Positions 4,437-16,638 of a stretch of DNA of 40,109 nt are shown piece by piece. Every line of letters starts with the position of its first letter. Positions within the stretch are counted from its first letter, which is position 1. Position numbers and translations under genes: made by a program. Below the pieces are notes generated by a model, which was not told the DNA's origin, did no database searches, and worked only from the letters and a program-made list of their open reading frames with translations. Source of the stretch: Lachnospiraceae bacterium (lineage in GTDB: Bacteria; Bacillota; Clostridia; Lachnospirales; Lachnospiraceae); contig FZRB01000027.1 in NCBI GenBank assembly GCA_900199595.1, positions 1-40,109 on the forward strand, read 5' to 3'.

Positions 4437-4465
4437 TTGACAGTCGATATTGATTGTGGTAATTT
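4437..4465 (+). promoter_or_regulatory. Promoter of the T-box leader
   Basis: TTGACA at 4437-4442 matches the -35 consensus exactly. After 17 bases comes TAATTT (4460-4465), a moderate -10. Transcription would begin near 4472, about 50 bases before the T-box stem I. Confidence 0.6.
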
Positions 4466-4489
4466 ATTTTACGATTAATTTTATAAACA

Positions 4490-4790
4490 TCAAATGCGTT
4501 GATGGGGAATAGTAAGTGTAGAGGATGCCTGCTGCAAACGTGGTGATGCAGTGAAGAGAACTGTCGGGTGGTGCAAGACAGAGGATAGTCACACCGAACT
4601 CGCCCTTGAGCAGATCGGGTGAAATAACAGTAGTCCGATTCGGAGCCCTACCGTTACAGAGGGAAGATATGAGTACTGTATAATCAGTTCCGTGTCGATG
4701 AGTGCGTGTGATGATTCACACGAAGTAGAGTGGTACCGCGTGATTCACGTCTCTACAAACCGTTGGTTTGTGGAGACGTTTTATTTTTTC
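4490..4790 (+). ncRNA. T-box riboswitch, probable leucine specifier (CUC)
   Basis: A complete T-box leader. The invariant T-box sequence AGAGTGGTACCGCG lies at 4727-4740. The stem I side includes AGTA near 4511, GGGTGGTGCAAG near 4566-4577, and GAACTCGCCCTTGAGC at 4596-4611. The GAA corresponds to the S-turn, and the following CTC (4599-4601), trailed by a purine, is the best specifier candidate. CTC is a leucine codon, matching the LeuA-like gene downstream. GTAGAG at 4725-4730 can pair with CTCTAC (4751-4756) as antiterminator. The competing terminator is a 13-bp hairpin (4749-4777) followed by a U-rich run. Uncharged tRNA-Leu would favour read-through. Confidence 0.9.
4749..4789 (+). terminator. 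T-box conditional terminator
   Basis: GTCTCTACAAACC and GGTTTGTGGAGAC form a 13-bp stem with one G-T wobble around a GTT loop, followed by GTTTTATTTTTT. Its 5' arm overlaps the antiterminator partner, as expected for a transcriptional T-box switch. Confidence 0.9.
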
Positions 4791-4825
4791 CTATCGTGTT
4801 ATAATATTTTTAGAGGAGAAGTCAA

Positions 4826-6220
4826 ATGAGAAAAATTGATTATTCAGACAAGACGTTGAAGAATTCACGTATCGGGCTTAGCTTTCGTGAGAAAGTTGAG
4901 ATTGCAAGGTATCTTGATCGTCTAGAAATCGAAGCTATTGAGTTACCGGTAATAGAAAATCTACAGGTTGATAGTCTGTTGGTTAAGTCCATTGCGGCAG
5001 CTCTTTCTAATGCTGTACTTACTATAGATGTCGGTTGGACAGAAGAAGGAATAGATATTGCGTGGGCTGCAATAGAGAATGCGCTGAAGAAGCGCCTGCA
5101 GGTCGTTGTTCCCGTAAGTGCAGTACAGATGGAATATAAGGTTCATAAGAAGCCGCCTGTAGTTCTTACATTAATAGAAACTCTTGTAAAGAAATGCAAG
5201 ACTCTGTGTGATGATGTGGAATTTGTGGCAGAAGATGCGACAAGAGCCGAAAGAGAATATCTTAAGGAAGCAATAGAGACAGCAATCAATGCAGGAGCAA
5301 CCAAGATTACGGTAAATGATGATGCGGGAACTATGATGCCTCCTGAGTCTGCTGAATTTATCGGATATGTTAAGGAAATCGTAAACGGAAGAGCTGCTCT
5401 CGGAGCGGGAACTTCCAATTCACTTGGTATGGCTGATATTTGCGCTGTTGAATCTGTAATTGCAGGAGCTGACAGACTTAGTGTTGCGGTTTATGGAGAT
5501 TCGGCAGATATTCAGGGAGTTACAAGGATACTTCTTGGATGTTCTGAAAAATGCGGAGCCCAGCCAAATGTAAAGAATACGGAATTGCAGCGTAATTGTG
5601 ATTTTATCTGCCGTATGAATAATACTGATTATGATAAAAGAACTCCGTTTGATGCAGGAGTAAGAGCCAAGGATGAGTTTAATATCGGAGAGCTTGGAGT
5701 AGGCGATGACATCAGTGTTGTGGCTGAAGCGGTGAATAAGCTTGGTTATGACCTTTCCGAGGAAGATATGAAAAATGTTTACGAGAAGGTAAACAGGGAA
5801 GCTGCAAAGAAGAATATAACAGCAAGAGATCTGGATGCTATAGTTGCCAGTACAGCACTTCAGGTACCGCCGACATATGAACTTGCAAGCTATGTAATTA
5901 ATTCGGGAAATATAATATCTGCAACAGCCAATATTTCACTGAAGTATAATGGTGAAGTATTATCCGGAGTGAGCATAGGAGACGGACCTATAGATGCTGC
6001 ATTTCTTGCAATGGAAGGAATTATCGGACATCATTATGAACTGGATGATTTTCAGATAGATGCTGTAACTGAAGGTAGAGAAGCATTGGGTGAAGCACTG
6101 ATACGTCTTCGCGCCGATAACGGAAGATTATATTCGGGAAGAGGAATATCAACGGATATAATCGGAGCAAGTATCAGAGGTTATATCAATGCGCTCAACA
6201 AGATCGTATATGAACAGTAA
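4826..6220 (+). CDS. Isopropylmalate-synthase-like protein with LeuA regulatory domain, catalytic site degenerate
   Basis: A 464-residue protein aligning end to end with 2-isopropylmalate synthase: TIM barrel residues 1-280, linker, and LeuA allosteric/dimer domain at about 350-464 (keeping YSGRGISTDIIGASIRGYIN). Active-site positions are lost. TLRDG at the N-terminus is TLKNS (residues 10-14), so catalytic Arg and metal-ligand Asp are gone. The HxHND metal motif is replaced by GTSNS (about 195-199), and no HESGIH-type motif is seen. VAEDATRAE and the downstream Asp are retained. It is probably not a working synthase; a leucine-sensing or scaffold role, or a different chemistry, are alternatives. 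RBS AGAGGAGA. First gene after the Leu T-box. Confidence 0.8.
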   Translation: MRKIDYSDKTLKNSRIGLSFREKVEIARYLDRLEIEAIELPVIENLQVDSLLVKSIAAALSNAVLTIDVGWTEEGIDIAWAAIENALKKRLQVVVPVSAVQMEYKVHKKPPVVLTLIETLVKKCKTLCDDVEFVAEDATRAEREYLKEAIETAINAGATKITVNDDAGTMMPPESAEFIGYVKEIVNGRAALGAGTSNSLGMADICAVESVIAGADRLSVAVYGDSADIQGVTRILLGCSEKCGAQPNVKNTELQRNCDFICRMNNTDYDKRTPFDAGVRAKDEFNIGELGVGDDISVVAEAVNKLGYDLSEEDMKNVYEKVNREAAKKNITARDLDAIVASTALQVPPTYELASYVINSGNIISATANISLKYNGEVLSGVSIGDGPIDAAFLAMEGIIGHHYELDDFQIDAVTEGREALGEALIRLRADNGRLYSGRGISTDIIGASIRGYINALNKIVYEQ

Positions 6221-6239
6221 TAAGATTCGGAGGTAATAT

Positions 6240-8726
6240 ATGAGACTTTCATTTTCTACGCACGGCTGGTGCGATAAAGAGTGGGATATTCTGGTTGAGT
6301 CAGCTGCGATCAACGGTATTTCAGGTATTGAAATAGCAAGTGACCAATGTGATGTTTATTCACAAGACGGAGGTCCATTCCATAAATATAATATTACGGC
6401 AACTATCAGAGATTTAAGAGAAAAGGGTATTGCTGTGGCAGTGCTTAACTCGGGATGCGATATGGCATCCGCTGCCCTTTCCGTAAAGGCTGAGGAGGAA
6501 ATCATTTCCAGAATAAAGCTTGCACAGTCCCTTTCGGTAAAGTATGTTATTTTATTCGGTGCTAAGGGTGGAAGCGTTGATATTTCCAGGAACGTGATAA
6601 GTAAGGTTCTTCCCGAAGCGAGAAAAAGGGGTATAACCCTTCTGGTAAAAACCAGCGGAATGTATTCAAATACAGCACTTCTGAAGGAGCTGCTTGATGG
6701 ATTTGCTTGTGATGATCTCGGAGCCAGCTGGAACATATATGCTCCGTATCGTGAGTTTAATGAAGATCCTCAGACAACTATCCAGAATCTGGGTGCATAT
6801 GTAAGACATGTACATGTATGTGATTCCAAGGAATCCCATGGTGACTTAAAGCATGCACTTGTAGGTGAGGGAGATCTGCCTATACCTGAGATGATGACAG
6901 CTCTTGCTTCTATAAATTATGATGGTTTCATGTCACTCAGATGGGATCCTTTATGGATTCCGGGACTTGATGATCTTGATGTTATTCTGACACATTATGC
7001 TGCAACAATGAGCAGATACGGAAATACTGCCAGAAAGAAATCATATCTTTATGACAACAGAAGTCATACAGGAAATTATATATGGAAACATGATGATCTT
7101 ATAGACCTGACCTTCGGTCAGCTGCTTGATAAGGTGGTTGAGGAGTTTCCGGATCAGATAGCATTTAAGTATACAACACTGGATTATACCAAGACCTATA
7201 AGCAGTTCAGGGATGATGTTGATAAATTTGCCAAGACTCTACTTTCACTTGGGGTAAGACCGGGAAAGCAGGTTGCCATATGGGCAACTAATGTGCCTCA
7301 GTGGTTTATTACCTTCTGGGCAGTAACCAAGATAGGCGCTGTACTTGTTTCTGTTAATACTGCATATAAGATACATGAGATAGAATATCTGTTAAAGCAG
7401 AGTGATACTCATACACTGGTAATGATAGACGGTTGGAGAGATTCAGACTACCTTGCTACCATGAAGGAGCTTTGTCCTGAGATGAATGATATTAAACCGG
7501 GTGAACAGCTTCATTCCAAGAGACTGCCTTTCCTTCGTAATATCATTACAGTAGACTGCAGACTTCCGGGATGTCTGACCTGGGAGGAGTCGCTGCTTAG
7601 AGCAGAAAGTGTTCCAAATGAGGAACTTCAGAGGTATGCAGCAGCCGTTGATAAAAATGATGTCTGCAACATGCAGTACACCAGTGGCACCACCGGATTT
7701 CCAAAGGGTGTAATGCTTACCCATTATAATGTAGTAAATAACGGTAAATATATTGGAGATCATATGGATCTGTCTACTGCTGACCGTATGATGATACAGG
7801 TTCCTATGTTCCATTGCTTCGGAATGGTTCTTTCAATGACAGCGGGCATGACCCACGGAACAACTATATATCCGCTTCCGTATTTTTCACCAAAGCCTGC
7901 CCTTGAGTGCGTTCATAAGGAGAGAATTACGACCTTTAACGGTGTTCCGACCATGTTTATAGCAATGAACCAGCATCCTGATTTTGAAAAGACTGATTTT
8001 TCATCTGTCAGAACCGGTATCATGGCAGGTTCCAACTGTCCTGCAGAACTTATGAAGCAGGTTTCCGAGATAATGAATATGAAAGAAATAGTAAGTGTTT
8101 ACGGTCAGACCGAGTCAAGTCCGGGAGATACCATGAGCAGTTACTATGATCCGCTTGATGTTCGTACTGATACGGTAGGTTCAGCATTTGCAAATGTGGA
8201 ATGCAAGATCATAGATCCTGAAACAGGAGAGGATTGTCCTGTAGGTGTTGACGGAGAATTCGTAGCAAGAGGTTATAATATCATGAAGGGATATTATAAG
8301 ATGCCAAAAGCAACGGCAGAAACCATTGATAAGGACGGATGGCTTCATACCGGAGATCTTGCAAAGATGGACGAGAACGGAAATTACTATATCACAGGAC
8401 GTCTTAAGGATATGATAATCCGAGGCGGTGAAAATATCTATCCTAAGGAAATAGAAGAATTCATTTATACTCATCCGGGTGTAAAGGATGTACAGGTTAT
8501 CGGTGTTCCGGACAAGAGAATGGGTGAGGAGATAATGGCCTGCATAATCTTAAAAGAAGATGCGACCGTTACTGTTGAGGAAATGAAGGAATTCATAACA
8601 GCCTCTATTGCTCGTCACAAGGTTCCGAGATATATTGAGTTCATGGATGAATTCCCAATGAATGCAGCAGGAAAGATTCTAAAATATAAAATGAGAGAAG
8701 ATGCAGCAAAGCGCTTAGGTCTTTGA
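6240..8726 (+). CDS. Fusion: sugar-isomerase-like TIM barrel + AMP-forming acyl-CoA synthetase
   Basis: An 828-residue two-part protein. Residues 1-260 match the xylose-isomerase/AP-endonuclease-2 fold (STHGW start, GIEIAS with Glu31, HVHVCD at 190-195, GEGDLPI). The usual metal ligands are altered: Lys137 replaces the strand-end Glu, Asn165 and Tyr170 the D...H pair, and Arg234 the final Glu. Residues 285-828 form a complete adenylating enzyme with YTSGTTGFPKG (about 479-489), YGQTE, GWLHTGDLAKMDENG, GRLKDMIIRGGENIYP and catalytic Lys812 in NAAGKILK. The ligase resembles short/medium-chain fatty acyl-CoA synthetases and should make an acyl-CoA from acid, ATP and CoA. It starts 19 bases after the LeuA-like gene, so it is co-transcribed. 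Confidence 0.88.
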   Translation: MRLSFSTHGWCDKEWDILVESAAINGISGIEIASDQCDVYSQDGGPFHKYNITATIRDLREKGIAVAVLNSGCDMASAALSVKAEEEIISRIKLAQSLSVKYVILFGAKGGSVDISRNVISKVLPEARKRGITLLVKTSGMYSNTALLKELLDGFACDDLGASWNIYAPYREFNEDPQTTIQNLGAYVRHVHVCDSKESHGDLKHALVGEGDLPIPEMMTALASINYDGFMSLRWDPLWIPGLDDLDVILTHYAATMSRYGNTARKKSYLYDNRSHTGNYIWKHDDLIDLTFGQLLDKVVEEFPDQIAFKYTTLDYTKTYKQFRDDVDKFAKTLLSLGVRPGKQVAIWATNVPQWFITFWAVTKIGAVLVSVNTAYKIHEIEYLLKQSDTHTLVMIDGWRDSDYLATMKELCPEMNDIKPGEQLHSKRLPFLRNIITVDCRLPGCLTWEESLLRAESVPNEELQRYAAAVDKNDVCNMQYTSGTTGFPKGVMLTHYNVVNNGKYIGDHMDLSTADRMMIQVPMFHCFGMVLSMTAGMTHGTTIYPLPYFSPKPALECVHKERITTFNGVPTMFIAMNQHPDFEKTDFSSVRTGIMAGSNCPAELMKQVSEIMNMKEIVSVYGQTESSPGDTMSSYYDPLDVRTDTVGSAFANVECKIIDPETGEDCPVGVDGEFVARGYNIMKGYYKMPKATAETIDKDGWLHTGDLAKMDENGNYYITGRLKDMIIRGGENIYPKEIEEFIYTHPGVKDVQVIGVPDKRMGEEIMACIILKEDATVTVEEMKEFITASIARHKVPRYIEFMDEFPMNAAGKILKYKMREDAAKRLGL

Positions 8727-8761
8727 TGTAAAATATTTGGAATAGAAAGAAGGGAAGATAA

Positions 8762-11700
8762 ATGTCTTTTAATGAATTTAAACCGGGTGAGATGGTTACT
8801 ATGGATGGAAATGAGGCAGCAGCTTTTGTTGCATATCATTTCTCAGAGATAGCTGCAATATATCCTATAACTCCGTCGAGCCCTATGGCAGAATATACAG
8901 ATGAATGGTCTGCTAAAGGAAAACTGAACCGTTACGGACAGACTGTAAGTCTTGTTGAAATGCAGTCTGAAGCAGGTGCCATTGGTGCTGTTCACGGAGC
9001 AGTAACATCAGGCGCGTTTGCTACAAGCTTTACAAGTTCACAGGGTCTTATGCTTATGATACCTGTGCTTCATAGAATTTCAGGAGAGAGACTCCCTGCA
9101 GTACTTCATGTTGCTGCAAGAACAGTAGGAACTCACGGAATGAGTATTTTCGGAGATCATTCCGATGTAATGAACTGTCGTCAGACCGGATTTGCTCAGC
9201 TTTGTTCATCTTCTGTTCAGGAGGTTATGGACATAGCAGCTGTTGCGCATCTTGCTGCAGTGAAGTCAAGCATACCGTTTATGCACTTCTTTGATGGATT
9301 CCGTACCAGTCATGAGCTGGCAAAGGTTGAAGTTATAGATTATAAGAAACTTGACAGCCTGGTTGATGAGGACGCTGTAAGACGTTTCAGAGAGAATGCT
9401 CTTAATCCGGAGCATCCTATGCTTAGAAATACAGTACAGAACGGAGATGTATATTTCCAGACTAGAGAAGCAAATAATACGGATTATGCAAATCTTCCGA
9501 ATGTTGTTGAATCTTATCTTGAAGGTATCTCAAAGATAACAGGAAGAGAGTATCACACATTTAATTATTACGGAGCACCTGATGCAGACAGAGTTATAGT
9601 AGCTATGGGTTCGGTTGCAGGCGCAATATGTGAGACTGTTGATGCCCTTAATGCGGCAGGAGAGAAGGTCGGATTCGTAAATGTACATCTGTATCGTCCG
9701 TTCTCAATTGAGCATTTCCTTAATGCAATGCCGAAGACTGTTAAGAAGATTGCAGTACTCGATCGTTGTAAGGAAATGGGAAGTGCAGGAGAGCCTCTTT
9801 ACCAGGATGTCTGCACAGCTTATACAAATAAAGAGTCTGATGTTGTAATTGTAGGTGGCAGATATGGTCTTTCATCCAAGGATACAAGACCTGACCATAT
9901 AGCTGCTGTATATACAAATCTCAATCAGGATGAGCCTAAGAATTCATTTACAATCGGTATTGAGGATGATGTAACTCATCTCAGCCTTCCTATCGTGAAG
10001 GGCGCTGTAAAGAGACCAAAGCATATAACAGCATGTAAATTCTGGGGACTCGGAAGTGACGGTACAGTAGGTGCCAACAAGAACTCGGTTGATATCATTA
10101 ATTCGGCAACAAATAAATATGCTCAGGCATATTTTGAATATGATGCAAAGAAATCCTTCGGTGTTACAAAGTCACATCTTAAGTTTTCGGATAAGCCTAT
10201 TAAGGGAAGTTATCTTGTTCATTCAGCAGATTTCGTTGCCTGCTCAACTCAGCAGTTCATACTTGATTATGACATAGTGGATGATATCAAGGAGGGCGGA
10301 AGCTTCCTTCTTAATACAGGATGGACTCCTGAAGAGCTGAATGTGATGCTTCCTGCTAAGGTTCGTCGTTACCTCGCTGAAAAGGATATTAACTTTTATA
10401 CGATAGATGCTACAGCTATAGCTCAGGAGCTGGAGCTGGGCACACATACAAATGTCATACTTCAGGCAGCATTCTTTGCTATAGCAGGTATAATACCGAT
10501 AGAGGAAGCTGCAGAGTATCTGAAGGATGCTGTTAAGAAAACATATTTCAAAAAGGGTGAAACAATAGTCGGAAGAAATATTGCCGCTATTGAAAAAGGA
10601 CTCAGTGGATTCAGTAAGGTAGAAATACCGGCAGACTGGAAAAATGCAGCAGATGATGAGACTGAAAAGAAAGATGACCGTCCGGATGTTGTTAAGAATA
10701 TTCTGGAACCGCTTAATAAGCAGAAGGGTGATGAACTTCCGGTATCCGCATTTATCGACAGACAGAATGGTGCCATTGAAATGGGACTTACAGCATTTGA
10801 GAAAAGAAATATTGCTGTTCAGGTTCCTGTATGGGATGCGACTAAATGTGTACAGTGTAACAGATGTTCAATGGTATGCTCACATGCAGTTTTAAGACCA
10901 TACCTTTTAAATGAGGAAGAAGCCAAGGCTGCTCCTGAAGAAGTTGTTATGGTCGATGCAAAGGGTAAGGGCGTTGAAGATATGAAATATACACTTCAGT
11001 GCAGTACCGCAGACTGTACCGGCTGCCAGAGCTGTGTAAACAACTGTCCTACCGGTGCACTTACTATGCAGCCTGTTCCTGAGGTTGATCTTACATCATG
11101 GAATTACTGTCTTGGTCTTGATGATAAACCGGACTTCTTTGATCCATATTCAGTTAAGGGAAGCCAGTTCAGACGTCCGTTATTAGAGTTCTCGGCTGCA
11201 TGTGCAGGTTGTGGTGAGACAGTATATGCAAAACTCATGACACAGCTTTTCGGAGATCGTTGTTACTGGGCAAACGGAACAGGATGTTCACAGGCATGGG
11301 GAGCACCAATGCCGGGAATTCCTTATACAGTAAATAAAAAAGGCCATGGCGTTGCATGGGGCAACAGCTTGTTTGAGAATAATGCCGAGTATAGTCTTGG
11401 TATGTATCTCGCAATAAAGCAGCAAAGAGAAACAGAGAAGCTTCGTACTGAAAAACTTCTTGAAGTAACAGAAAATGAGGTGCTTAAAGAAGCAGCTAAT
11501 AACTGGATCAGTCTCTATGATGATTTTGATGCTTCCGTAAAGGCAAGCAATGACTATCTTGTTGCTTTGGAGGATTCTCTTAAGCAGGGATGCTCTAAAG
11601 AAGAATCAGATATCATTAATGAGATTCTTAAGGCAAAGGATCAGCTTACCAAGAAAACCTTCTGGATGTATGGTGGAGACGGCTGGGCATATGATATCGG

Positions 11701-12292
11701 CTTCGGAGGTCTTGACCATGTAATAGCATCGGGAGAAGATATAAATGTATTCGTTATTGATACAGAAGTTTATTCCAATACCGGAGGACAGTCCAGTAAG
11801 GCTACACCTCTGGGCGCAGTTGCAAAGTTTGCATCCAGCGGTAAGAAATCGCCAAAGAAGGATCTTGGATCGATGCTTATGACCTACGGAAATGTATATG
11901 TAGCGCAGGTTGCCATGGGTGCAAGTCCGGAGCAGCTCCTTAAGGCATTTAAAGAGGCAATGGCTCACAAGGGACCATCTGTAATCGTTGCATACACACC
12001 ATGTACCGCACATGGAATGAAGTGTGGTATGGGCGGAGCTCAGCAGGAGATGAAGAGAGCGGTTCAGGCAGGCTACTGGCTGCTTTGGAGATACAATCCG
12101 GAAACCGGCGAAATGCATCTTGATTCTAAGGAACCGGATACACCGCTAGAGGAATTCCTTGATGGTGAAGTTCGTTATAATCTTCTTAAGAGAACATTCC
12201 CGGAGAATGCAAAAGAACTTTTCGAAAAGAGTACAGATAGAGCAAAAGAAAGATACGAGAAATTCCTTGGAATGTCTACGGATCATAAATAA
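8762..12292 (+). CDS. nifJ: Pyruvate:ferredoxin (flavodoxin) oxidoreductase, homodimeric type
   Basis: A 1176-residue full-length PFOR with all domains fused. The pyruvate-binding domain has YPITPSSPM (34-42) and ARTVGTHGMSIFGDHSDV. The gamma domain follows. Two 4Fe-4S motifs are present: CVQCNRCSMVC starting at Cys696 and CTGCQSCVNNC starting at Cys752. The TPP domain has CAGCGE, a proximal cluster Cys and GDGWAYDIGFGGLDH...NTGGQSSK. The enzyme interconverts 2-oxoacid plus CoA with acyl-CoA, CO2 and reduced ferredoxin. The residues are canonical for pyruvate, but other 2-oxoacids cannot be excluded. The 35-base gap from the acyl-CoA ligase gene has a GAAGGGAAG ribosome binding site and no terminator, so it probably falls under the T-box. 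A strong terminator follows. Confidence 0.95.
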   Translation: MSFNEFKPGEMVTMDGNEAAAFVAYHFSEIAAIYPITPSSPMAEYTDEWSAKGKLNRYGQTVSLVEMQSEAGAIGAVHGAVTSGAFATSFTSSQGLMLMIPVLHRISGERLPAVLHVAARTVGTHGMSIFGDHSDVMNCRQTGFAQLCSSSVQEVMDIAAVAHLAAVKSSIPFMHFFDGFRTSHELAKVEVIDYKKLDSLVDEDAVRRFRENALNPEHPMLRNTVQNGDVYFQTREANNTDYANLPNVVESYLEGISKITGREYHTFNYYGAPDADRVIVAMGSVAGAICETVDALNAAGEKVGFVNVHLYRPFSIEHFLNAMPKTVKKIAVLDRCKEMGSAGEPLYQDVCTAYTNKESDVVIVGGRYGLSSKDTRPDHIAAVYTNLNQDEPKNSFTIGIEDDVTHLSLPIVKGAVKRPKHITACKFWGLGSDGTVGANKNSVDIINSATNKYAQAYFEYDAKKSFGVTKSHLKFSDKPIKGSYLVHSADFVACSTQQFILDYDIVDDIKEGGSFLLNTGWTPEELNVMLPAKVRRYLAEKDINFYTIDATAIAQELELGTHTNVILQAAFFAIAGIIPIEEAAEYLKDAVKKTYFKKGETIVGRNIAAIEKGLSGFSKVEIPADWKNAADDETEKKDDRPDVVKNILEPLNKQKGDELPVSAFIDRQNGAIEMGLTAFEKRNIAVQVPVWDATKCVQCNRCSMVCSHAVLRPYLLNEEEAKAAPEEVVMVDAKGKGVEDMKYTLQCSTADCTGCQSCVNNCPTGALTMQPVPEVDLTSWNYCLGLDDKPDFFDPYSVKGSQFRRPLLEFSAACAGCGETVYAKLMTQLFGDRCYWANGTGCSQAWGAPMPGIPYTVNKKGHGVAWGNSLFENNAEYSLGMYLAIKQQRETEKLRTEKLLEVTENEVLKEAANNWISLYDDFDASVKASNDYLVALEDSLKQGCSKEESDIINEILKAKDQLTKKTFWMYGGDGWAYDIGFGGLDHVIASGEDINVFVIDTEVYSNTGGQSSKATPLGAVAKFASSGKKSPKKDLGSMLMTYGNVYVAQVAMGASPEQLLKAFKEAMAHKGPSVIVAYTPCTAHGMKCGMGGAQQEMKRAVQAGYWLLWRYNPETGEMHLDSKEPDTPLEEFLDGEVRYNLLKRTFPENAKELFEKSTDRAKERYEKFLGMSTDHK

Positions 12293-12301
12293 AAAGAAAA
12301 G

Positions 12302-12333
12302 CCCCGGCGGAGTGGATGCTCCTCCGGGGTTTA
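12302..12333 (+). terminator. Rho-independent terminator after nifJ
   Basis: CCCCGG-C-GGAG (12302-12312) pairs with CTCC-T-CCGGGG (12319-12329) around a short loop, followed by TTT. It is GC-rich and stable although the T-run is short. It closes the metabolic operon. Confidence 0.85.
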
Positions 12334-16071: not shown

Positions 16072-16638
16072 ATGAATAAAGAAAACGAAAAAGTACTGGA
16101 ACGGTTAATTCAGGGAAATGAGATATATGTTAAGAATAATCAGAACGCAGGAGATGTATCCCTTGAAGCAAGGCAGCGTACTGCAAAGGAGGGGCAGCAT
16201 CCATATGCGATAGTGATCACCTGTTCTGATTCAAGAGTGATTCCAGATGCTATCTTTTCTGCAGGAATAGGAGATCTTTTTGTGATACGTGTTGCGGGAA
16301 ATGTTCTGGATAATCATCAGCTTGGAAGTGTAGAGTACGCATTTTCCCACTTGGATGCAAATCTGATTGTAATGCTGGGGCATACAAAATGCGGAGCGAT
16401 ATCTGCGGCACAGAATAGTCATGGAACAACTGACAAGTTTATTAAATATATTATCGAAGATATAACTGAAGCAATAGGTGATGAAACAGATGATTATAAG
16501 GCAACCGTTCTAAATGTTAAGCATGGTGTGAATATAATCAGAAATGCTTTCCATGATCATCCGGATATAGAAGATGGCGAACTGGATGTTCTGGGAGCGG
16601 TATACGATATAGAAACTGGTGAGGTGAAGATAATATAA
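16072..16638 (+). CDS. Beta-class carbonic anhydrase
   Basis: A 188-residue protein with the beta-carbonic anhydrase zinc site: Cys51-x-Asp53-x-Arg55 in CSDSR and His104-x-x-Cys107 in GHTKCGA. It is near the usual length for the short prokaryotic class. It interconverts CO2 and bicarbonate in the cytoplasm, supplying bicarbonate for carboxylases or CO2 for PFOR-type reductive reactions. TGGAGGAAA precedes the ATG. Its stop overlaps the next start by one base (TAATG), so the downstream 77-residue protein is translationally coupled. Confidence 0.95.
   Translation: MNKENEKVLERLIQGNEIYVKNNQNAGDVSLEARQRTAKEGQHPYAIVITCSDSRVIPDAIFSAGIGDLFVIRVAGNVLDNHQLGSVEYAFSHLDANLIVMLGHTKCGAISAAQNSHGTTDKFIKYIIEDITEAIGDETDDYKATVLNVKHGVNIIRNAFHDHPDIEDGELDVLGAVYDIETGEVKII

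Follow-up and report, generated by a model that had tools for sequence, protein, structure and literature searches.

The locus described here raises the question of why a T-box leader of the leucine type should control an enzyme of the pyruvate:ferredoxin oxidoreductase (PFOR) family. It is located on contig FZRB01000027.1 (positions 1 to 40,109, forward strand) of the Lachnospiraceae bacterium assembly GCA_900199595.1, and this whole stretch of 40,109 nt is called the window below. The operon on the + strand comprises a leucine T-box leader, the gene for a LeuA-like protein (LeuAx), the gene for a fusion of a TIM barrel with an acyl-CoA ligase, and a PFOR gene (Table 1). An earlier note on this DNA had suggested that the ligase and the oxidoreductase together produce 2-oxoisocaproate from isovalerate by reductive carboxylation. 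Comparative genomics supported this suggestion through the leucine specifier, the absence of another LeuA and of LeuB and LeuC, the pattern of co-inheritance, and the T-boxes of further ligases. Based on sequence comparison we propose, with a probability of about 0.82, that the operon of this gut bacterium serves leucine biosynthesis, as a cassette which would replace leuABC(D) and use isovalerate, a waste fatty acid, as the precursor. Related cassettes are present in many bacteria of rumen and gut, and some of these have versions for valine and isoleucine.

According to this proposal, uncharged tRNA(Leu) would let transcription proceed through the T-box leader. The ligase part of the fusion, a putative isovaleryl-CoA ligase, would activate isovalerate to isovaleryl-CoA, and the operon PFOR, as a candidate 2-oxoisocaproate synthase, would convert isovaleryl-CoA to 2-oxoisocaproate with reduced ferredoxin and CO2. 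An aminotransferase would then convert 2-oxoisocaproate to leucine. LeuAx is predicted to be non-catalytic, to sense leucine by its LeuA_dimer domain and to feed back on the ligase. As outlined in passages of PMC7356843, it has been reported since the 1960s that rumen bacteria use branched short-chain acids to produce leucine, valine, and isoleucine, and these acids are growth factors of ruminococci; leucine can be formed by direct carboxylation of isovalerate, while 2-methylbutyrate and isobutyrate are the precursors of isoleucine and valine (with reference to Allison and colleagues). The conversions proposed here and the kind of habitat are the same as described there for isovalerate, isobutyrate, and 2-methylbutyrate, and the cassette adds proposed genes, their regulation, and a candidate for feedback.

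The leader was confirmed as a complete T-box. The match to RF00230 exceeded the gathering score of 93 bits (E 2.4e-24) and covered model positions 1-219, i.e., the full length, and the CUC specifier, the UGGU motif, and the terminator hairpin were all present. The specifier stands in the context GAA-CUC-G, and in the RF00230 alignment CUC, a leucine codon, occupies the same place as the specifiers of other T-boxes. The close spacing of the three genes was also confirmed, with gaps of 19 bp between LeuAx and the fusion and 35 bp between the fusion and PFOR. The host genome contains three further T-box matches, all below the gathering score, which precede pheS, an ACT-domain gene together with trpE (leader at C12:125248-125533), and, very weakly, aspS (gene names by sequence reading).

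Profile searches detected no LeuA, LeuB, or LeuC elsewhere in the host genome (3.49 Mb, rated 100% complete), and LeuAx and LeuB were nearly mutually exclusive across the family. In the host, LeuA profiles matched the LeuA-like gene only, no protein of LeuC size was found (the sole aconitase-family match was a 779-aa frame), and the only LeuB match was weak (31 bits). IlvC (442.6 bits) and a second PFOR were present. Genome G160 of the same genus lacks LeuAx and has LeuA, LeuB, and LeuC. The window leader was 66% identical to the leader of leuA in G160 and 47-49% identical to three other cassette leaders. Since it is closer to the G160 leuA leader than to the other cassette leaders, the comparison suggests that a leuA T-box already resident took control of the cassette. 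The window leader and the G160 leuA leader carry the leucine specifier CUC in the same position, but the window T-box controls a cassette standing in for leuA. A split-subunit 2-oxoacid oxidoreductase, possibly a 2-oxoglutarate enzyme, is encoded close to aconitase in the host (C11:42302-49492, L010-L012), and the same arrangement was found in G160.

Among 299 family genomes 16 carried LeuAx, and a clear score gap separated these carriers from the genomes below. LeuB scored over the cut-off in 2/16 carriers versus 266/283 non-carriers (Fisher p 7e-14), and 13 of the 16 carriers had no second LeuA_dimer protein. Carrier G211 has an additional LeuA, whereas LeuB and any protein of LeuC size are absent from it; LeuC was tested in the 16 family carriers and in G160 only. 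LeuB was over the cut-off in four of 48 further carriers, which we chose from 80 loci mainly by length and gene content and for which genome completeness is not given. Incompleteness of metagenome-assembled genomes (MAGs) may inflate gene absences. Lack of LeuB by itself does not mark the cassette specifically, since 17 of the 283 non-carriers lacked it as well.

An alignment of 14 LeuAx proteins, used as the query, matched at least 522 related stretches, and the 80 loci used here were taken from these after ranking by similarity (L123 and L145 look like contigs of the family genomes G298 and G096). By record title the 80 loci are mostly from Clostridia MAGs, many of them from ruminants, together with some Erysipelotrichaceae, two Bacteroidales, one Eggerthellaceae, and one Caccocola. 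Two records are not marked as MAGs (Erysipelotrichaceae NK3D112 and Bittarella massiliensis GD6). In NK3D112 a single locus combines LeuAx, the isoleucine and valine ligases, and VOR, and neither LeuB nor IlvC scored over the cut-off in this genome. The fusion barrel directly followed LeuAx in 77/77 evaluable loci, and barrel and ligase shared one reading frame in all 78 complete fusions collected. PFOR adjoined the fusion in 7/16 family carriers. Within the stretch examined, PFOR was within reach in 10/80 loci, VOR-type subunits in 32/80, and both together in none. Comparison of gene order, which the earlier note had recommended, thus revealed a conserved pair of LeuAx and fusion, and in many relatives a VOR-type enzyme of three subunits in place of PFOR, located beside further acyl-CoA ligases. 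All three VOR alpha subunits scanned passed the VorB model NF005507 (471, 540, and 537 bits, cut-off 399).

The cassette was also seen in two Bacteroidales MAGs (L144 and L146; LeuAx identity 46-48%). The PFOR of L146 is of the operon type and is nested inside the Clostridia clade, and this position suggests horizontal transfer. In two other relatives a tetrahydrofolate riboswitch (L106:6597-6697) and a lysine riboswitch (L086:3075-3243) were found near the cassette.

At least one additional AMP-ligase was present in 38/80 loci, and the ligases observed were of two types (lig2 and lig3). Specifiers were counted by a blind pick from stem pairing, after identical leaders had been removed. A separate leader listing, which gave several candidate codons per leader and from which the expected codon was chosen by eye, was not used for the counts. 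Among the leaders of LeuAx 54/68 were resolved, 52 as leucine (CUC or CUG) and two as glycine. Leaders of lig2 were assigned to isoleucine (AUC) in 27/27 cases, and for lig3 21/23 leaders were resolved (17 valine, GUA or GUC; three glycine; one proline). The two glycine picks for LeuAx (L086 and L091) were in the distal loop, and their Rfam alignments gave CUC and CUG. By our reading the four odd picks for lig3 were outside stem I, and none of the six odd picks falls within the specifier loop. Rfam alignments of 15 leaders led to the same leucine, isoleucine, and valine assignments as the blind picks. The matching isoleucine and valine T-boxes on further ligases of relatives strengthened the pathway reading.

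MbcS (NF047394) was the best NCBIfam match of all six isoleucine/valine-type ligases scanned (G211, L130, and L142; 409-431 bits), although they remained well below the cut-off of 850. In the two G211 copies scanned, helix-turn-helix (HTH) and cupin domains are added to the AMP-binding domain. According to the sections of PMC10026030 consulted, MbcS of Staphylococcus aureus is selective for 2-methylbutyrate and isobutyrate and poor on isovalerate. This preference fits the presence of isoleucine and valine T-boxes on MbcS relatives, and of a leucine T-box on a ligase of a different, PRK12583-like subfamily, to which the window ligase belongs. One ligase for each branched-chain amino acid would fit a scheme in which isovalerate, 2-methylbutyrate, and isobutyrate are first activated and then reductively carboxylated. 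Acyl-CoA ligases with N-terminal HTH and cupin fusions were also seen at L062:984-5596; such a fusion is possibly another way to couple a sensing module to a ligase, or a self-regulating enzyme. IlvC was over the cut-off in 0/21 genomes with two extra ligases at the locus and in 9/27 others, plus one fragment. In the family, all seven PFOR carriers had IlvC (five whole, two fragments), and the other nine carriers had it in one case. The pattern was uneven, with IlvC in 2/8 of the named PFOR-type genomes tested, plus one fragment.

The earlier note had named as the main objection that the PFOR looks canonical for pyruvate. As described in excerpts of PMC5020499, PFOR from Desulfovibrio africanus recognizes the carboxylate of pyruvate by Thr31 and Arg114, the methyl group lies among Leu121, Ala219, Ile843, Asn996, and Met1202, and mutations at positions matching 843 and 996 altered the specificity of a relative. 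The window PFOR is a full-length homolog of the enzymes from Moorella and D. africanus, and the operon PFORs retained Thr31 (13/13 with this position) and Arg114 (14/14), so the objection stands for the carboxylate-binding residues. It does not stand for the side-chain pocket. All 14 operon PFORs had Val219 and Ala843, and 11/14 had Met121, while Asn996 was unchanged. The 10 other PFORs had Ala219 in 8/10, Ile843 in 9/10 (Ala in one), and Leu121 in 10/10. With Met, Val, Ala, and Asn at positions 121, 219, 843, and 996, the window PFOR does not match the pyruvate pocket of D. africanus; in its own numbering the Val and Ala are residues 225 and 845. In a tree of 24 PFORs (four identical copies removed; the full-length PFOR on G081 C5, which has no locus, and partial PFORs left out) the 14 operon PFORs formed one group with 100/100 support, apart from the 10 others including the host paralog. 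Three of the 14 (window, L081, L082) are near relatives. Because the operon clade is separate and its side-chain pocket is changed, the objection is weakened, and we propose that the new pocket would accept the substrate of a 2-oxoisocaproate synthase.

The description of the first gene as LeuA-like was correct with respect to its HMGL-like and LeuA_dimer domains; the catalytic metal site of LeuA, however, is missing. We take the metal ligands of LeuA to be Asp and HxH. The Asp was found in 0/92 LeuAx and HxH in 0/92, while 3/92 had His at just one of these two places, and the neighboring Arg was kept in 25/92. These 92 are the full-length, de-duplicated proteins of the loci; partial copies (G175 and G187) were left out. 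The barrel and the LeuA_dimer domain are shared with 2-isopropylmalate synthase LeuA, but the segment of LeuAx that connects the HxH position with the regulatory domain has 36 residues fewer than that of the reference LeuA. The window protein reached 263.2 bits with the best curated LeuA model of NCBIfam (cut-off 532), and passed LeuA_dimer PF08502 (107.6 versus 24.9 bits), and the GDGP and STD motifs of this domain were kept almost throughout LeuAx. The first structure matches of the AlphaFold model (pLDDT 86.4, pTM 0.59) were methylthioalkylmalate synthase and LeuA; its barrel fitted 3ewb well (root mean square deviation 1.9), and the whole chain poorly. LeuAx is a probable pseudoenzyme, and since the metal site is lost and the leucine-binding LeuA_dimer domain is retained, it probably acts as a leucine sensor. 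The ligase would be its target, because LeuAx is constantly paired with the ligase fusion.

The "isomerase"-ligase fusion named in the earlier note does contain AP_endonuc_2 (63.4 bits, cut-off 31.1), AMP-binding (310.1 bits), and AMP-binding_C (64.9 bits) domains, but the TIM-barrel domain is only a putative "isomerase". As metal-binding candidates of the barrel we assume the acidic residues and His of sugar isomerases. D165 was present in 64/78 fusion barrels, H192 in 75/78, and E234 in 68/78; the window copy has N165 and R234. We dropped the idea of the barrel as nothing more than a dead isomerase, as most fusions keep the candidate metal residues, although the window copy lacks two. The structure model of the fusion was moderately confident (pLDDT 74.5), and nothing was built on it. 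The window ligase scored 690.2 bits with PRK12583 fatty acid CoA ligase (cut-off 832).

A number of observations weigh against isovalerate carboxylation as the function of the cassette. The window PFOR scores as a pyruvate oxidoreductase in NCBIfam (TIGR02176, 1675.4 bits, cut-off 911.35), and its pocket is made narrower in one place by Val for Ala219 but wider in a second by Ala for Ile843. With none of the NCBIfam models listed (the best 25 of 110) did the window ligase reach the cut-off. Within the stretch examined, neither PFOR nor VOR was found in 38/80 loci, many stretches being incomplete. A pattern search did not detect the T-box core within 320 nt of LeuAx in 20/77 evaluable loci, and an Rfam search of four of these at E 0.01 found no T-box before LeuAx. 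In several of the 20 loci LeuAx lies downstream of VOR genes on the same strand. At locus L082, whose cassette is a 92% relative of that in the window, a T-box is missing and a promoter-like TTGACA-17-TATTAT stands before LeuAx (L082:5738-5846). Two of the 16 family carriers (G226 and G175) also have LeuA, LeuB, and LeuC, so the leuABC route and the cassette can coexist in one genome. Weaker LeuB matches of 130-264 bits occurred in 15 carriers without LeuB over the cut-off (3/14 family, 12/44 others). Nine such proteins from seven genomes were scanned (those of G285, G308, G315, G321, G327, G343, G345, and G346 were left out). Seven scored best as isocitrate or homoisocitrate dehydrogenase, and the other two (L190, G234:C19:5382-6401; L188, G342:C35:33396-34436) each passed a tartrate dehydrogenase model as well as a second isopropylmalate dehydrogenase model.

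We considered whether the operon could instead feed ordinary leucine synthesis, with the ligase activating acetate, PFOR making pyruvate, and LeuAx working as isopropylmalate synthase. The LeuA-like first protein and the TIGR02176 score of the PFOR would agree with this, but the lack of LeuB and LeuC in the host, the loss of HxH and the metal Asp from all 92 LeuAx, and the availability of a second PFOR for pyruvate make it very improbable. LeuAx as an active isopropylmalate synthase was rejected for the lost metal site and the host without LeuB/LeuC. Reactions of 2-oxoacid:ferredoxin oxidoreductases are reversible, and the operon could in principle oxidize leucine-derived 2-oxoisocaproate to isovaleryl-CoA and isovalerate for energy. 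However, a T-box implies induction on leucine shortage, AMP-forming ligases run towards acyl-CoA, and LeuA, LeuB, and LeuC are missing from the host genome. We regard such a catabolic direction as just as hard to believe. A supply of isovaleryl-CoA as primer for branched-chain fatty acids, with PFOR being incidental, has a precedent in MbcS of S. aureus, which acts with other acids (PMC10026030, in part). This explanation leaves the oxidoreductases, the matching leucine, isoleucine, and valine specifiers, and the missing LeuB unexplained; it is unlikely, if slightly less so than the two preceding ones.

A stronger competitor accepts the carboxylation pathway and assigns another role to LeuAx, namely that it assists the ligase or PFOR as a structural or catalytic partner. 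LeuAx is the constant neighbor of the fusion, and beyond the lost metal site its barrel still shows conserved positions. On the other hand, both motifs of the LeuA_dimer domain, G-D-G-P and STD, are retained, and with 107.6 bits the domain is over its Pfam cut-off. We consider a partner role possible, with odds somewhat below even. The isovalerate pathway with a sensory LeuAx can be extended to a full model, to which we would give an even chance. A LeuA dead for catalysis would be kept as the leucine-sensing feedback subunit of isovaleryl-CoA ligase, an enzyme unrelated to it, and be coupled to this ligase by the fused TIM barrel. It would be part of a modular anaerobic system with a separate T-box, a separate ligase, and a separate sensing module for every branched-chain amino acid (the module being LeuAx and barrel for leucine, HTH-cupin for isoleucine and valine), and with a shared or dedicated 2-oxoacid:ferredoxin oxidoreductase. 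This system would replace leuABCD and in many genomes ilvC.

The pathway is old; what is new to our knowledge are its genes, the logic of three T-boxes for three amino acids, and a LeuA without catalysis. No description of this gene set was found in the literature searched (open-licence papers, listings in part), which does not show its absence from print, and the portion of PMC10794557 seen contained nothing on this system. The cassette offers a concrete gene set for rumen physiology, with substrate assignments that can be read from RNA specifiers. If the proposal is true, organisms whose genomes have been classed as leucine auxotrophic may be prototrophs that depend on isovalerate, the assignment of a second oxidoreductase to pyruvate may be wrong, and the annotation of this protein as LeuA does not denote a synthase.

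Table 1. Positions of the operon features in the window.
Feature	Position	Strand	Evidence
Likely promoter	TTGACA 4437-4442, 17 nt spacer, TAATTT 4460-4465	+	By-eye reading; absent from promoter-scan sites
T-box leader	4490..4757	+	Rfam RF00230, 112.8 bits
Specifier codon CUC (leucine)	4599..4601	+	Position matches specifiers of other T-boxes
UGGU of antiterminator bulge	4731..4734	+	Leader sequence and RF00230 match
Leader terminator hairpin and T-rich tail	4747..4779	+	Terminator scan and folding, fold z -5.2
LeuAx, 464 aa, LeuA-like without catalytic metal site, LeuA_dimer retained	4826..6220	+	HMGL-like and LeuA_dimer domains
Fusion, 828 aa, xylose-isomerase-like TIM barrel (~1-275) and AMP-forming acyl-CoA ligase (~286-828)	6240..8726	+	AP_endonuc_2 and AMP-binding
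PFOR-type 2-oxoacid:ferredoxin oxidoreductase, 1176 aa, operon-specific clade	8762..12292	+	PFOR domains
End-of-operon hairpin, weak U-tract	12299..12332	+	-25.1 kcal/mol, z -4.9; tail UUUAAAA; not in terminator-scan list

At the borders of the operon, the promoter scan of the window gave 24 sites versus a shuffle mean of 22.1, i.e., no excess. The single terminator described in the earlier note corresponds to a strong hairpin, but its U-tract is weak and it is missing from the terminator-scan list. About 4 kb downstream of the operon, at 16072-16638 of the window, lies a Pro_CA carbonic anhydrase gene; that it might be linked to CO2 supply is only a thought.

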